A stretch of 64,000 bases of DNA from the NCBI RefSeq assembly GCF_014925385.1, contig NZ_JACSDK010000009.1:1-64000 (forward strand), written 5' to 3'. Below, piece by piece: positions 2,148 through 6,891 of the stretch. This stretch comes from Pelagibius marinus (lineage in GTDB: Bacteria; Pseudomonadota; Alphaproteobacteria; Kiloniellales; Kiloniellaceae). Every line of letters begins with the position of its first letter. Position 1 is the stretch's first letter. The translations under genes and the position numbers were made by a program. The notes below the pieces were generated by a model. It searched no databases, had not been told where the DNA came from, and saw only the letters and a program-made list of their open reading frames with translations.

Positions 2148-2786
2148 ATGTTTGCGGCCTTTTTTCCAAGCGCCTCAGCGGCGCTTGAAGGCTTCGGCCT
2201 CGGCGCCGGCCTCATCATCGCCATCGGCGCCCAGAACGCCTACGTGCTGCGCCAGGGCCTGCGCCGGCAGCACGTTTTCGCCGTCGCCGGCCTGTGTTTC
2301 CTTATCGACTGCGCCCTGATCGCGGTGGGCGCCGGCGGCTTTGCCAGCCTGCTGCACGCCTTCCCGAACCTGCCGCGCATCGCCGCCTGGGGCGGCGCGA
2401 TCTTCCTCGCCGGCTACAGCCTGCGCGCCTTCGCCGCGGCGCTGCACCCCGGCAGCCTGAAGGCCGAGGGCGCCGCACCCGGCGGTGCCGGCCTCAGGGC
2501 CGCCCTGGTGACGGCCCTGGCGCTCAGCCTGCTCAATCCGCACGTCTATCTGGATACGGTGGTGCTGCTCGGCGGCCTCGCCGCCCAATACCCGGGCAAG
2601 GAGCGCCTGGCCTTCGCCCTGGGCGCCATGGCGGCCTCCGGCCTGTGGTTCTACGGCCTCGGCTACGGGGCGCGCCAACTGGCCCCGCTCTTCGCCCGGC
2701 CCGCCGCCTGGCGGCTGCTGGACGGCTTCGTCGGCTGCGTCATGGCCGCCCTGGCGGTCAGCCTCGTAATCAGCCAGCTTAGCTAG
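2148..2786 (+). CDS. LysE/ArgO family amino-acid exporter
   Basis: Integral inner-membrane transporter of the LysE superfamily, which exports basic or other amino acids (lysine, arginine) and thereby limits toxic accumulation. The N-terminal helix carries the family hallmark around residues 14-35 (GLGAGLIIAIGAQNAYVLRQ). About six hydrophobic segments follow, and the 212-residue length is typical. The ATG at 2148 is preceded by GAGTGGAGA; an in-frame upstream start at 2070 would add a non-hydrophobic stretch and is less likely. Its similarity is closest to the ArgO/LysE branch with the I-G-A-Q-N signature rather than the RhtB branch, so arginine or lysine export is the likeliest role. No LysG/ArgP regulator lies next to it here. 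Confidence 0.85.
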   Translation: MFAAFFPSASAALEGFGLGAGLIIAIGAQNAYVLRQGLRRQHVFAVAGLCFLIDCALIAVGAGGFASLLHAFPNLPRIAAWGGAIFLAGYSLRAFAAALHPGSLKAEGAAPGGAGLRAALVTALALSLLNPHVYLDTVVLLGGLAAQYPGKERLAFALGAMAASGLWFYGLGYGARQLAPLFARPAAWRLLDGFVGCVMAALAVSLVISQLS

Positions 2787-2859
2787 GCGAGCCTGGGAAG
2801 TTGAGGCGCTTCACATCAGCAGGCCGCCACACTCACCGCCCCTGTCCGCCGAAGTCAGC

Positions 2860-2940
2860 TAAGCACTAATAAGCGGCCCCATCCGTGGCGGAAAGACGAC
2901 AGCCGCTTTGTGCCACTGGCGGACATTCTGCGCAGCTTCA
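2860..2940. repeat. Degenerate intergenic repeat with alternating CCGC / GCGG blocks
   Basis: Two imperfect ~29-bp units, AGCGGCCCCATCCGTGGCGG and then AGCCGCTTTGTGCCACTGGC, follow each other and end in GGACATTC. The pattern of GTCCGC, TGGC and AAAGCGG blocks recalls a family of dispersed intergenic repeats that I remember from alphaproteobacterial genomes. The copy here is worn, and membership is recalled rather than tested. Confidence 0.3.
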
Positions 2941-3126
2941 AGGCAGGGGATAGACTTGCGCCGGTTTTTGAGGGAGGGCTCCGCGCAGATCGCCGCCTGC
3001 CGCCAGAACACAACAGTCTGAACCAGCGAGTGGTACCAGGGGCAAGTCAGGGAAGCTGTAAAATTTGTTTGCAGTGGCCTGTTTGATGAGCAAGCAGATC
3101 CTCGATAAATCAATAACTTGGCAAGA

Positions 3127-3142
3127 TGGAACGAATATTGCT
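3127..3142 (+). promoter_or_regulatory. Sigma-54 (RpoN) type -24/-12 promoter for the exosortase locus
   Basis: TGGAACG-AATA-TTGCT matches the consensus TGGCACG-N4-TTGCW at all but one position, with the GG and GC doublets exactly 12 bases apart. Transcription would start near 3153, giving a 45-base leader before the small secreted peptide at 3199. RpoN with the PrsK/PrsR two-component pair is known to control PEP-CTERM/exosortase genes in other bacteria, so the position is meaningful. No activator site was identified upstream. Confidence 0.55.
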
Positions 3143-3198
3143 GAACACTGTTTGTGGCACACAAATAACGGCCAAATTATGCCTTGGGAGAAATTGAT

Positions 3199-3363
3199 AT
3201 GCGTTTAGCGGTTCTCAGCCTTCTCGGCTTGCTAGCAACCCTGTCTCCTGCATTCGCTCAGGTTCAACTCGGAACGATTGTTCCCGTTGTGGACGGTGGC
3301 CTGGCGGCCATTGCCGCAGCCGGCGTGATCGGCGGCATCTGGCTTACCCGCCGTAAGAAGTAG
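3199..3363 (+). CDS. 54-residue secreted peptide with exosortase-type C-terminal sorting signal
   Basis: ATG at 3199 is preceded by GGGAGA at a 9-base spacing, a good ribosome site. Residues 1-20 form a signal peptide ending in SPAFA-Q. The rest is 34 residues: a seven-residue stretch, then VPVVDGG, a hydrophobic segment (about 35-50) and the basic tail TRRKK. This tripartite end (short motif, membrane helix, Arg/Lys cluster) is the layout of exosortase targets such as PEP-CTERM. The VP-x-x-D-G form is nearer to what I recall of VPEID-type signals. The gene stands two genes upstream of an exosortase on the same strand. After removal of both signals almost nothing would remain, so the product could be a tiny anchored peptide, a building block or a signalling peptide. 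It is too short for ordinary gene finders. Confidence 0.72.
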   Translation: MRLAVLSLLGLLATLSPAFAQVQLGTIVPVVDGGLAAIAAAGVIGGIWLTRRKK

Positions 3364-3398
3364 GCTGTCCAACTGAGATCAGTCCGGGGCTTGAAGGA

Positions 3399-3416
3399 GC
3401 GGCTTTTGTAAGCCGC
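3399..3416 (+). promoter_or_regulatory. Stem-loop between the small peptide gene and the enzyme genes
   Basis: GCGGCTT-TTGT-AAGCCGC is a perfect 7-bp stem with a 4-base loop, 36 bases after the peptide stop. No T-run follows, so it is not a standard terminator. It may stabilise or separate the abundant peptide message from the downstream hydroxylase and exosortase message. Confidence 0.4.
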
Positions 3417-3453
3417 AGCCACCCTCGCACTACGGCTGCAGAAAACACAGGGC

Positions 3454-4320
3454 ATGGAAAGCCTTGCCACGCTGACAGGAACGCTTTTCTTTGGTGCAGC
3501 GGCGCTATTCGCGGTCGCCGAGTGCCTGTCGCCTGCGCGCGCCCCGACCTCCCCGATCGGGCGTCGCTGGCTGACTAATCTTGCGCTTTTCTTCTTTGGT
3601 TTCCTCATTCATCGGATGCTGCTGCCTTTCACCGCCCTGATCGCAGCGCAGGCGGCGGGCGAGCTGGGGAGTGGCTTGTTCCAGAAGTTGAGCTTGCAAG
3701 CAGCTATCGCCGTGCCACTCGGTGTGCTGTTTCTGGATTTCTGGAAGTATATCGAGCACCGATTGTTCCATGGCGTGCCGCTGCTGTGGCGGCTCCATAG
3801 GGTCCATCATTCGGACGTGGACGTGGATTTCACCACGACAGAGCGCCATCATCCGCTCGAAGTCTGCGTTTCCATGCTCTTTCTTCCGTCGGCTGTCTTC
3901 ATCTTGGGCGTGCCGGACTTGGCCGTCGGGGTCTATGTGCTGCTGGGGTCGATCGTGGCGCTGTTTTCTCATAGCAACGTCGAACTCGGCCCGGCCTTCA
4001 ACCGACGGCTCTCCTGGCTGATCGTGACACCAAGGGTGCACTGCATACACCACTCGGCAGACCCGCCTGAGACCAACAGCAACTACGGCATCTTGCTGAC
4101 GCTTTGGGACCGTGTGTTTAAGACCTTTCGGCAGGAAGTGGCGAAGAGCCGTGGCCGGCAGCGTCTCGGACTTGAGTACTTCCGAGACGCCCGTTCCGCT
4201 CGCCTCGACCGCGTGCTTCTGCAGCCCTTTCTGCCGGCCCCGACTGAACAACGGCCTGCGGCCGGGCAAGGCGCGCTCGAACGGGGCGGCCAGGCTGAGA
4301 ATCTGGAGACTTGGGGATGA
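3454..4320 (+). CDS. Sterol desaturase / fatty acid hydroxylase superfamily protein
   Basis: Membrane di-iron oxygenase of the fatty-acid-hydroxylase superfamily, which hydroxylates or desaturates lipids. Several transmembrane helices fill the first 110 residues. The histidine clusters that bind the iron pair are present: EHRLFH, HRVHH, a following HH (in TTERHHP) and HCIHH near residue 196. At 288 residues it matches the family. The ATG at 3454 has a weak ACAGGG site. Its stop overlaps the exosortase start by four bases (ATGA), so the two are translationally coupled. That coupling suggests it makes or modifies the lipid to which the exosortase substrate is joined, or a lipid needed by the same surface structure. 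That role is inference, and the substrate is unknown. Confidence 0.85.
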   Translation: MESLATLTGTLFFGAAALFAVAECLSPARAPTSPIGRRWLTNLALFFFGFLIHRMLLPFTALIAAQAAGELGSGLFQKLSLQAAIAVPLGVLFLDFWKYIEHRLFHGVPLLWRLHRVHHSDVDVDFTTTERHHPLEVCVSMLFLPSAVFILGVPDLAVGVYVLLGSIVALFSHSNVELGPAFNRRLSWLIVTPRVHCIHHSADPPETNSNYGILLTLWDRVFKTFRQEVAKSRGRQRLGLEYFRDARSARLDRVLLQPFLPAPTEQRPAAGQGALERGGQAENLETWG

Positions 4321-5870
4321 GTGTCGTACCGCACGCCAAGCCGGAACCGCCCCTGGCAAGGCGCTCTACCGCGCGTTCGCCCGGTGTACCCTGTAAGGCC
4401 TGGTTCCCGACATTACTCGGGATCGGCCTCGCCCTGCTTGCGTTTGGTTTTGCGTTCCACCGGGAGATCGCCGAGATCACCGACATTTGGTCCAAATCGA
4501 AGACCTACAACTTTGGTTGGATCGTCATGCCTACGGCCGCCTTTCTGCTGTGGACGCGCCGCCACGTGATCACCCGGAGCTTGCCGCGCGCCAGCCTGTG
4601 GGGACCGGCCCTCGCGGTGGCTGCCAGCGCGCTTTGGCTCGCCGGGGACATCCTGGCAATCGCCGAAGTGCGCCATTTCGCGCTAGCCGCGGCACTGCTG
4701 TGCCTGACGCTCGCCGTTTGCGGTGCCGGCCGCTTCCGGCAGCTCCTGCCATGCTTGCTGCTTGTACCTTTTATCGTGCCGACGGGTCAGTTCCTGCTCC
4801 TTCCGCTCCGGCATCTCGCGATTGAGATCGTCGCAGGATACAGCGCGCTGGTCGGGCTCGACTTTACGCGTGATGGCTTTACCTTCTTCGTCGATCAGAA
4901 TCGCTACGTGATCGTCGATGACTGTGCCGGATTGTCCTACCTGATCGTCGGCGCGATGCTTGGGGTCACCTTCGGTGCCTTGAGCGTTTTGCCGCTATGG
5001 CGCGTTGTCACATTCGCTGTGCTAGGGGCTGTCTTGGGTGTCGTCGCCAATGCCGCGCGCATTGTCGCGATCGTCTCGTACGATTACCTCAGCCATACGC
5101 AGATGGAGCTTGCCGCTCACCACCCCTTCGAGATTTTGTCCTGGGTCCTGCTGCTTGTTCTGCTCCTCGCCTTGCACGCGCACGCCGGTAGGAAGAGCGA
5201 GCCCCAGGTCGAGCTACACGAGTCGACTTCGGCTGCACCCTCGGCCACGGCGGCTCGAAACCTGGCCGTCCCGCTCACCTGTGCCCTGATTCTGGTATCG
5301 GGTCCTTTGTTGACCTCAAACCCGGGTGCTGCGGGGACGCCGGCACCGGCTGCCCCCAGCTTTCCCGAAGTTGTCGGCCGCTGGGCCCTGGACAAGAATG
5401 CAGCAGCCCCCTGGCACCCTAGGGTCCGCGGCGGCCTGGCGCAGTCGCTCGCGGTTTACAGCGATGTAGAGGGCGGAAAGGTCAGTCTCTTCCTCGTTCG
5501 AGCTGAACGACGGGAGCAGAAGTTCAGCGATTATAAAATCAACTTTATGGGGTCAGCCTCGCTGGACGACACTTGGATACCGGCGCGCAGAACCAGCGAG
5601 CGGCTTTGTGCAAAGAATACTTGCTACGAGGTCGTCCATGAAACCTATGTGAGGGAAAAACATGAGGATGTCCGCCGCGTCTACTGGTTATACCGGGTGG
5701 GCCGGGAGACCGCCGGATCGTTATTCTTGCTGCGCCTACGCCGAGCTCTCGCTGATTTGCGCGGCGAGACGGCATCGGCCGAGATGGTTGCCTTAATGAC
5801 ACAGGCGCCGAACCCGCAAAGCTTGGTGCTGGACCCTGAGGAGGTGGTAGCTTTCCTCCTCCGCTTATGA
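4317..5870 (+). CDS. Exosortase fused to a C-terminal EpsI-like domain
   Basis: Multi-pass membrane transpeptidase expected to cut proteins at a C-terminal sorting signal and join them to a surface acceptor. Residues 30-295 form the exosortase (EpsH) core of about eight helices, beginning with the YNFGWIVMP motif. The catalytic triad is visible: C203 in DDCAGL, R248 in NAARI and H268 or H269 in the AHHPFE motif. After a linker and one more helix (about 318-335), residues 345-517 form a soluble domain like EpsI (DUF3485), starting at PEVVGRW. A fused exosortase-EpsI layout is, as I recall, also found in the VPLPA-specific XrtD enzymes. The start ATG at 4317 overlaps the upstream stop; a TTG at 4311 is the alternative. 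Its only obvious substrate here is the 54-residue peptide at 3199. GC content is lower than in the flanking core genes, which suggests acquisition. Confidence 0.88.
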   Translation: MSVVPHAKPEPPLARRSTARSPGVPCKAWFPTLLGIGLALLAFGFAFHREIAEITDIWSKSKTYNFGWIVMPTAAFLLWTRRHVITRSLPRASLWGPALAVAASALWLAGDILAIAEVRHFALAAALLCLTLAVCGAGRFRQLLPCLLLVPFIVPTGQFLLLPLRHLAIEIVAGYSALVGLDFTRDGFTFFVDQNRYVIVDDCAGLSYLIVGAMLGVTFGALSVLPLWRVVTFAVLGAVLGVVANAARIVAIVSYDYLSHTQMELAAHHPFEILSWVLLLVLLLALHAHAGRKSEPQVELHESTSAAPSATAARNLAVPLTCALILVSGPLLTSNPGAAGTPAPAAPSFPEVVGRWALDKNAAAPWHPRVRGGLAQSLAVYSDVEGGKVSLFLVRAERREQKFSDYKINFMGSASLDDTWIPARRTSERLCAKNTCYEVVHETYVREKHEDVRRVYWLYRVGRETAGSLFLLRLRRALADLRGETASAEMVALMTQAPNPQSLVLDPEEVVAFLLRL

Positions 5871-6234
5871 TGACCCGGTTCATCGCGATAAAGGCCCCGA
5901 CTCATACGTCCGATAATGTGAAAGGTCGACAGCTTCTTCCGGCAAGCTAACTGCGAAGACAAGTGCCTGGATCCGTGAAGATTCCATGGCCATGTCCCCA
6001 AGGATGGACAAAGCGATCTTCAATCTGGCATCCACTGGTATCAACTTCGGCAAGGATGCCTTCAACATTGTCGCCTATGGGTCAAAAACTGCTGTCACAT
6101 CGGGCAGCAGGAGCTGTCCGCTGAGAACCGGACAGCCGACCTTCTCCACCGGCACGGGGCCGCCTTGGGCTCAGCCTCGCGCCGCAATCGGCTTTACGTG
6201 AATCTCCGAGTCTTTGCGTGAAACGCCGTAGAGT
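5871..6234. other. Intergenic stretch after the exosortase
   Basis: No intact gene is supported. It contains a possible transposase relic (6004-6110) and a hairpin GCTGTCCG-N8-CGGACAGC (6113-6136) that lacks a T-run. It is the boundary between the AT-richer island and the GC-rich core. Confidence 0.45.
6004..6110 (+). pseudogene. Possible decayed N-terminus of an IS110-family transposase
   Basis: The frame from ATG 6004 contains GINFGKDAFNIVAYG, which resembles the GIDxGKxxFHxVG start of IS110-type (DEDD) transposases. After about 35 codons the similarity stops, and the conserved Asp is replaced by Asn. No terminal repeats are visible. If real, it is a scar of an insertion at the right edge of the exosortase island. 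The match is short and made by eye. Confidence 0.25.
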
Positions 6235-6891
6235 TTACTCCGCCGCGTCGCTGCGGCTCTTCACCGGCCCCTCCGGACGCTTGATGGAGAAGACTTCCTC
6301 CACCAGGCAGTAGTCCATGTAGCCGAGGCGCGCGATGGGCTTCACCTTGGCCATGTCGACCAGGCCGTTGGTCAGCACCGAGTCGTCGATGTGGATGCCG
6401 ATCACCTGCCCGAAGACCACGGCGTTGCGGGAGTCGGGAATGTCGGAGGGCAGGTCGACGGTCTGCAGGTAGCTGCACTCCAGGTGGATCGGCGAGGCCG
6501 CGACCCGCGGCGGCTTCACCAGCTCGGCGGGCACCAGTTCCAGCCCGGCGATCTCCGCCTCGTTGGTGCCGGCCGGCGCGGAGGCCGAGGTCATGTTCAT
6601 CTGCTCGCGCAGGTCCCAGGTCACCACGTTGCAGACGAACTCCCTGGTGCGCTCGGCATTGGCCAGCGAGTCCTTGGAGCCGTCGGGCGGCCCGTCTGCC
6701 TTGCGGCCGCCGGCGGCGAACATCACGACGGGCGGATCGCCGGCCACGCCGTTGAAGAAGCTGTAGGGCGCCAGGTTCACCTGGCCCGCTTCGTTCATGG
6801 TGGTGATCCAGCCGATCGGGCGCGGCACCACACAAGCCTTGAAGGGATTGTGCGGCAGGCCGTGGTCGCCGGTCCGCGTGTCGTAGAACAT
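6235..6891 (-). CDS. Flavin reductase family protein (FMN-binding)
   Basis: A 218-residue protein of the DIM6/NTAB (flavin reductase-like, FMN-binding split barrel) family, which reduces FMN with NAD(P)H or binds it in oxygenase-like reactions. The family start is clear: CVVPRPIGWITTMNEAGQ near residues 20-37, followed by NLAPYSFFNGVAGDPPVVM, which contacts the flavin. The branch with PRPIGW is the larger flavoprotein group rather than the short monooxygenase-partner reductases. The ATG at 6891 follows a purine-rich GGAGAGG on the minus strand. It lies just downstream of clpB on the same strand with a 61-base gap. The specific electron acceptor is unknown. Confidence 0.88.
   Translation of the reverse strand: MFYDTRTGDHGLPHNPFKACVVPRPIGWITTMNEAGQVNLAPYSFFNGVAGDPPVVMFAAGGRKADGPPDGSKDSLANAERTREFVCNVVTWDLREQMNMTSASAPAGTNEAEIAGLELVPAELVKPPRVAASPIHLECSYLQTVDLPSDIPDSRNAVVFGQVIGIHIDDSVLTNGLVDMAKVKPIARLGYMDYCLVEEVFSIKRPEGPVKSRSDAAE

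Follow-up and report, generated by a model that had tools for sequence, protein, structure and literature searches.

We describe a dedicated exosortase–substrate module in Pelagibius marinus, encoded on the forward strand near the start of a 64,000-nucleotide (64-kb) stretch of contig NZ_JACSDK010000009.1 (hereafter the window). We hold with high confidence that the exosortase of this module is devoted to one substrate, a 54-residue peptide encoded beside it. The best overall explanation, for which the case stands evenly balanced, is that this one-substrate module makes a ribosomal peptidolipid. The module and its three genes are:

3127-5870, + strand: exosortase module, consisting of a sigma-54 promoter, the 54-aa peptide, a PF04116 hydroxylase and a PF09721 exosortase
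3199-3363, + strand: predicted exosortase substrate, 54 aa, with a signal peptide ending in AFA, the linker QVQLGTIV, the motif PVVDGG, a hydrophobic helix and the tail RRKK
3454-4320, + strand: FA_hydroxylase-superfamily di-iron membrane oxygenase of the lipid type, with the module-specific motif DFTTTERHHPLE (PF04116, 107.2 bits)
4317-5870, + strand: exosortase of a distinct clade, with a C-terminal EpsI/DUF3485-like domain (PF09721, 122 bits; PF11984, 34 bits)

The three genes recur as a unit. Peptide, hydroxylase and exosortase were found in the same order and on the same strand at all seven loci identified, including the window; these loci were found through the exosortase or the hydroxylase, and the peptide was never used as a query. 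Searching the order with the exosortase gave matches in 20 of 61 genomes, the source genome among them, with one close relative (G059; 36% identity, E = 6e-86, next match 2e-39), and the DNA upstream of the G059 exosortase encodes a hydroxylase of 49% identity together with a similarly built peptide. In a class sample of 385 genomes, the only other genome below 1e-50 was G116, again with a hydroxylase and a 51-residue peptide. A scan of named genomes with the hydroxylase alignment, which used exact short motifs, yielded 21 pattern matches, three of which were confirmed: two metagenome-assembled genomes (MAGs) of Porticoccaceae and one of Sphingomonadales, and in all three the peptide and exosortase genes keep this order. 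Of 112 genomes in the family to which one of the MAGs belongs, three matched at E ≤ 1e-80; two of these had been found before, and the third, G807 (which lies outside the six-row alignments of peptide, hydroxylase and exosortase), again has the module complete. The co-occurrence that the original prediction called for, of the peptide with this exosortase clade and the hydroxylase, is thus seen at every locus. In a phylum sample, six of 398 genomes besides the source genome matched the exosortase profile at E ≤ 1e-50, all of them outside the module clade. The lack of a further clade member there at that threshold indicates that the module is rare, although the thresholds used (1e-30 for the class, 1e-50 for the phylum and 1e-80 for the family) could hide divergent members. 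A plasmid-borne system was considered and rejected, as the exosortase had no match at E 1e-5 in 72,556 plasmids; the hydroxylase had matches in 224 plasmid records, each below 60% identity.

The peptide divides, with borders and cut sites drawn by eye, into a probable signal peptide, an 8-residue linker, a motif, and a helix followed by a basic tail (MRLAVLSLLGLLATLSPAFA / QVQLGTIV / PVVDGG / LAAIAAAGVIGGIWLTRRKK). It had been proposed from the window alone as 54 residues built from a signal peptide and a VPVVDGG-helix-RRKK tail; it lies at 3199-3363 and has counterparts at seven of seven loci. The two Porticoccaceae copies (L047 and L049) differ with a ratio of nonsynonymous to synonymous rates (dN/dS) of 0.10 over 61 codons, a rough value because it comes from a single pair with near-saturated synonymous sites (dS 1.3); the same pair gives 0.13 for the hydroxylase and 0.18 for the exosortase. 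Together, the counterparts and the dN/dS value make the peptide very likely a real gene and argue against a chance open reading frame (ORF), and from this comparison it is judged to be under purifying selection. Ahead of the linker, all seven peptides carry [AV]xA (strict AxA in five, VxA in two), and the pre-peptides are 51-75 residues long. The seven linkers span 4-26 residues and contain no charged residue at any of their 94 positions, only L, G, S, T, V, A, Q, P and I being present; with the cut sites as drawn, they agree with the expectation that the processed product would be a few residues.

None of the seven peptides passed a cut-off in NCBIfam or in Pfam, PF07589 of PEP-CTERM included. 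The best score for the PEP-CTERM model TIGR02595 was 13.1 (cut-off 16), and the nearest model by E-value, PID-CTERM (NF046080), reached at best 19 bits against a cut-off of 26, in the Sphingomonadales peptide (L048), with weak matches in two further module peptides. GlyGly-CTERM models were absent among the peptide matches at E up to 1. A peptide that is no substrate but serves the exosortase or the hydroxylase as a chaperone, an inhibitor or a small membrane subunit would be equally compatible with the operon position and the constant co-occurrence. We regard this as improbable, given that the peptides have the full tripartite sorting architecture, that their conservation lies mostly in motif, helix and tail, as in substrates, and that the NCBIfam models they match weakly describe sorting-signal domains, anchor domains or unrelated families.

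We asked how many targets carry the signal. In the source genome, a whole-peptide profile recovers the peptide's own gene at E = 7e-22 with the next match at 0.096, and a profile of the C-terminal signal recovers it at 1e-14 with the next at 1.95. Six module genomes were covered by the single-target and PrsR counts, G807 standing outside both, and in each of them the C-terminal profile found one strong match (E 1.3e-15 to 5.4e-13), the next best anywhere being 0.02. The claim that the peptide is the only visible target of its exosortase therefore withstood the genome-wide search.

The same genome also encodes a standard XrtA locus, on another contig (C14) outside the window, with PrsK, PrsR, PrsT, XrtA, FemAB and amidotransferase each above cut-off and an exosortase scoring 285 bits for XrtA (cut-off 208). 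Three genes in the genome exceed the Pfam cut-off for PEP-CTERM, and C14 and a further contig (C4) carry PEP-CTERM genes. Given these genes, and that XrtA is the best specific model for the window exosortase (159 bits), we entertained the possibility of an ordinary XrtA paralogue with other PEP-CTERM targets elsewhere, the peptide being one of many. This was rejected, and we consider it very improbable: all seven module exosortases fall below the XrtA cut-off (TIGR03109, 134-184 bits against 208) while a separate XrtA is present in the same genome, the module signal has a single strong match per genome, and the module exosortases form a separate clade.

That clade is well defined. In a maximum-likelihood tree of the seven module exosortases and 32 others from the same searches (L017 and L025 were left out because their ORFs were not clean), the module sequences group together at 100/100 support and are set off by a long stem. 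All seven pass PF09721 (111-151 bits, cut-off 25.7), and four of seven pass each of TIGR02602 and PF11984 (DUF3485). For the window protein, the proposed fusion of an exosortase with an EpsI domain stands in its exosortase part (PF09721, 122 against 25.7; TIGR02602, 109.7 against 105.55) and is only moderately backed in its EpsI part, which passes PF11984 (34.2 against 26.1) but not TIGR02914 (28.5 against 42.8). The residues C203, R248 and H268, of catalytic type, are invariant in the six aligned module exosortases. Among the matches listed, none of the module exosortases reached a type-specific exosortase cut-off, and the window protein scored 16.7 bits for XrtX (NF046081, cut-off 170). By these comparisons, the module defines an exosortase clade with its own signal, claimed by no NCBIfam type model. 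An AF2 model built on the six-sequence alignment (predicted local distance difference test score (pLDDT) 79.7, predicted template modelling score 0.71) has a helical half and a beta-rich C-terminal half; a Foldseek search of this model against the PDB gave no match at E ≤ 0.001 (best PsbP, 0.11), so no solved relative was found. In the EpsI-like domain, a C431-x4-C436 pair is invariant in the six aligned proteins and lies between two predicted strands, where it may form a disulfide. Separately, six exosortases of the same order (L018-L022 and L026) form a second 100/100 group in the tree, with a very long stem (2.63), and perhaps represent another unnamed exosortase type.

The hydroxylase is the constant partner. 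The proposal of a lipid di-iron oxygenase finds its confirmation in PF04116 (107 bits, cut-off 31), which all seven module hydroxylases pass at 89-110 bits. The window copy is 37-49% identical to the five other aligned copies, and eleven histidines are invariant in the six (H102, H106, H115, H118, H119, H132, H133, H173, H196, H199 and H200). A motif, DFTT[TAS]ERHHP[LI]E, is common to all seven; at its position, 23 of 29 other PF04116 relatives have D[VA]TT..RFHP and six lack a pattern match. Against these 29 relatives (L062-L090) the module hydroxylases form a clade with 100/99 support, and within the DNA read around each relative no exosortase was present (0/29). G116 branches first in both the hydroxylase and the exosortase trees, its hydroxylase being a flagged long branch, and the inner order differs between the two. 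The hydroxylase profile is unspecific in the phylum sample (matches in 168 of 398 genomes), and its structure model is poor (pLDDT 62.7).

Upstream of the genes lies a two-part control region:

3127-3142, + strand: sigma-54 (-24/-12) promoter TGGAACGAATATTGCT, weighted score 14/15, 72 nt before the ATG at 3199
3056-3074, + strand: palindromic box CTGTAAAATTTGTTTGCAG, probable site of the enhancer-binding response regulator PrsR, 52 nt before the sigma-54 site

The sigma-54-like promoter of the original prediction was located by a scan scored against the -24/-12 consensus at 3127-3142 (P ~0.004 when the 200 nt upstream were dinucleotide-shuffled 1000 times); two sites score at least 14 in the whole window on both strands. 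A site picked by eye at TGGCACACAAATAACG (3155-3170) lacks the GC and was set aside, as was a by-eye PrsR box at another spot, since the box at 3056-3074 scores best. Six module upstream regions were readable, the Sphingomonadales locus (L048), with 27 nt upstream, being left out of the promoter tests. In all six the best sigma-54 site lies 72-118 nt before the ATG (single P 0.004-0.05), with a summed score of 76.5 against 60.4 ± 2.3 in dinucleotide shuffles, and in all six a PrsR-type box matching at 10-12 of 14 positions lies 49-62 nt before that site, with a sum of 65 against 46.6 ± 2.0 in shuffles (without the window, 55 against 38.6 ± 1.8). The box query (CTGTCAGnnnnnCTTACAG) came from the PEP-CTERM genes of C4 after the module upstreams had been viewed, and was thus not fully blind; the window box matches 10 of its 14 specified positions (P 0.04 alone). 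In the two C4 genes, CTGTCAGTATTTCTTACAG stands 51 nt before a sigma-54 site scoring 14-14.5, and the PEP-CTERM gene of C14 has a 10/14 box, a gap of 81 nt and a sigma-54 site scoring 15. A box of at least 10 with a sigma-54 site of at least 12.5 at a gap of 45-69 nt occurs once in the window, at the module, under thresholds chosen after the hits were seen. As an observation on the C4 genes themselves, they are paralogues (L131, ~8.9-9.1 kb of C4 in the source genome, G000) whose PrsR boxes are identical and whose sigma-54 sites are nearly so, and the one at L131:9055 has a short tandem repeat of the GCGGAACACATCATGAG type running up to and across its start codon.

PrsR itself scored above the 502.6-bit cut-off in six of six module genomes searched and in none of 14 control genomes, a count that we take as suggestive only. 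In proteobacterial PEP-CTERM genes, a 17-nt motif ending in TTTACA, a ~63-nt spacer and a sigma-54 motif have been described and tied to PrsR (PMC1569441), and RpoN dependence has been reported for a PEP-CTERM gene with such a promoter (PMC9850573). The spacing of box and sigma-54 site across the loci as a group, together with PrsR in the genomes, places the module probably within the PEP-CTERM regulon, and we consider it likely that it is under PrsR/sigma-54 control, the binding being predicted from sequence. With this XrtA-type control region, the module resembles a satellite attached to the surface regulon of PrsK/PrsR and XrtA. The dedicated mini-system first proposed is accordingly sustained in its one substrate and its recurrence as a unit, but not as a free-standing system; the observation behind it was real, and its interpretation is supported.

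Exosortases are thought to cut the C-terminal signal at the periplasmic face and then to transfer the substrate. In the mechanism that we propose, PrsK/PrsR and sigma-54 would drive production of the 51-75-residue pre-peptide, signal peptidase would remove its N-terminus, and the C-terminal helix would hold the peptide in the inner membrane. The module exosortase, with its Cys/Arg/His residues, would then cut at the P-[VFT]-x-x-G-G region and transfer the short, uncharged Gly/Ser/Thr/Leu-rich peptide to an acceptor, our best guess being an amine-bearing membrane lipid modified by the partner hydroxylase. The resulting peptidolipid would be delivered to the envelope or the exopolysaccharide matrix along with XrtA/PEP-CTERM proteins. 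The presence of the hydroxylase in seven of seven modules fits a tailored lipid acceptor and makes a small uncharged peptide on a hydroxylated lipid the most likely product. The lipid-conjugate step, drawn by analogy, has an even chance or slightly less of being correct: in the archaeosortase branch, C-terminal lipid attachment and a need for lipid-making enzymes are described (PMC7157517), and N-acyl amino acid synthases occur beside PEP-CTERM/exosortase genes (PMC7293339). The complete proposal, of an undescribed ribosomal lipopeptide in which the exosortase conjugates a nearly passenger-free, uncharged peptide to a lipid hydroxylated by its partner and thereby adds a small-molecule branch to the PrsR/PEP-CTERM surface programme, is put forward tentatively.

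Two other fates of the peptide have to be weighed against transfer to a lipid. The exosortase could act as a peptidase only, freeing a secreted signal or surfactant-like peptide while the hydroxylase alters the lipid environment for unrelated reasons. The product would be of pheromone size, the variation in linker length may suit a species-specific signal and a receptor could sit elsewhere in the genome. However, linker composition is alike across loci, unlike a specific code, the hydroxylase at every locus is left unexplained and the characterised archaeosortase chemistry includes lipid attachment, which together render cleavage alone unlikely. Slightly less probable still is attachment to exopolysaccharide or to some other nucleophile of the periplasm, which would make the peptide a minimal matrix component resembling PEP-CTERM proteins. 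The control type is shared with PEP-CTERM proteins, which are tied to exopolysaccharide retention (PMC9850573), and the model of 2006 invokes a nucleophile in the periplasm that it leaves unidentified (PMC1569441); yet by eye no polysaccharide gene lies in the module or directly adjoining it in the window, and the one partner seen at every locus is a hydroxylase of the lipid type.

Several observations nevertheless count against a PrsR-controlled peptidolipid module. The PrsR box of the window is statistically the weakest of the six. Boxes of at least 10 occur 32 times over the two strands of the window, and 19 of these are followed by some GG-N10-GC; with the bar set at 9 or more, 69 + 54 boxes in the window are so followed, a frequency that deprives a lone box of any weight as evidence. 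The cleavage signal also varies somewhat, as G116 has PTLPGP in place of P-x-x-x-G-G and L048 a shorter PVSGG. Module exosortases share 25-33% identity with the window copy in the six-row alignment, which leaves room for a change of role from one host to another. The six aligned hydroxylases have a single NCBIfam match in common, OlsE, and its model (NF052566) gives 80-90 bits for the three copies with scores listed, against a cut-off of 475, too low to assign a substrate. Comparison establishes the recurrent three-gene unit, the single strong target in each genome, the clade, selection on the peptide and the common type of control region; PrsR binding, cleavage, the role of the hydroxylase and the destination of the product are predictions, and the lipid acceptor is proposed by analogy from haloarchaea.

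The module sits within a larger segment:

2783-6235, no strand assigned: lineage-specific insertion carrying the module, between LysE-type exporter and flavin reductase-like genes (names by eye)

This segment is 3.4 kb long with a GC content of 0.601. The flanking flavin reductase-like gene is present in six of seven other genomes of the genus, and in all six the window flanks are collinear and 2783-6235 is absent; the gap between the flanks is 88 bp in G053, ~1.1 kb in four genomes and 2.7 kb in G057, with other ORFs. No module-clade exosortase was found elsewhere in the seven congeners, the sole exosortase match (G056) lying outside the clade. The module also differs in composition, as had been noted at the outset: positions 3127-5870 have a GC content of 0.616 against 0.679 ± 0.026 for equal-sized windows of the 64 kb, and GC at third codon positions is 0.61-0.73 against 0.88-0.95 in five flanking genes. 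Absence from all six congeners and this lower GC suggest that the module was probably gained recently by horizontal transfer at a variable site. The contents of the LysE/flavin-reductase junction (L139-L144) vary in their own right: four congeners have a 1.1-kb insert with a 293-aa ORF of dienelactone-hydrolase type, one has a 2.7-kb insert with a 761-aa chemoreceptor-like ORF (both by eye) and another has nearly nothing.

The layout of the module was described as unidirectional and partly overlapping. All parts are indeed on the + strand, and the hydroxylase stop and exosortase start share four nucleotides (ATGA, 4317-4320), but the peptide gene does not overlap the hydroxylase gene. Neighbouring genes in the window, named by eye, are M23 peptidase-, LysE-, flavin reductase- and ClpB-like; these being of other kinds, an exopolysaccharide cluster with FemAB/amidotransferase does not surround the module. 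A search of 2700-6300 against Rfam gave zero matches, a sigma-70 scan found no sites and terminators numbered four against 3.6 expected.

To our knowledge, it is still unknown which group bacterial exosortases attach to their substrates. Here a substrate of 54 residues, encoded next to its own enzyme and a likely lipid-tailoring partner, gives a whole product small enough for direct mass spectrometry, and the module could help to show what exosortases attach. A literature search, whose coverage left out most subscription papers, yielded no description of such a system among the matches listed; no paper was found on ‘PID-CTERM' or on exosortase with sterol desaturase, and papers pairing exosortase and hydroxylase appear unrelated from title and start of abstract. 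On the evidence of the searches, the novelty lies in the clade and its signal, in a target nearly without passenger, in the constant presence of the hydroxylase and in the wiring of the module into the XrtA regulon.

Among known systems, PID-CTERM, whose proteins are in many cases short, is the signal paired with XrtX. PID-CTERM is the best sorting-signal model for the L048 peptide, though under its cut-off, and the window exosortase is far from exosortase X by its score. The hydroxylase shares the PF04116 core and histidine boxes with OlsE and other PF04116 oxygenases, but differs from them in its low OlsE scores and its private DFTTxERHHP motif. Dedicated sorting systems are a known idea, and archaeosortase is a distant homologue of exosortase (both from PMC3237569). 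As in rhombosortase/GlyGly-CTERM (PMC3237569), enzyme and single target are encoded together and the motif holds Gly-Gly; unlike there, the enzyme is an exosortase (PF09721) and not a rhomboid protease, and the target is almost without passenger. Archaeosortase A likewise recognizes a C-terminal motif, helix and basic tail and needs lipid enzymes for maturation; however, it is archaeal, with many large substrates, a PGF motif and the lipid enzymes PssA/PssD in place of a hydroxylase (PMC7157517). The closest parallel in control is XrtA/PEP-CTERM with PrsK/PrsR/PrsT (PMC1569441), which has the same enzyme family, a tripartite signal and a sigma-54 site with an upstream box at similar spacing. 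In contrast to that system, the module has one target that is almost all signal and lacks the PEP motif, lies outside an exopolysaccharide cluster, carries an extra hydroxylase and has an exosortase of a separate clade below the XrtA cut-off.

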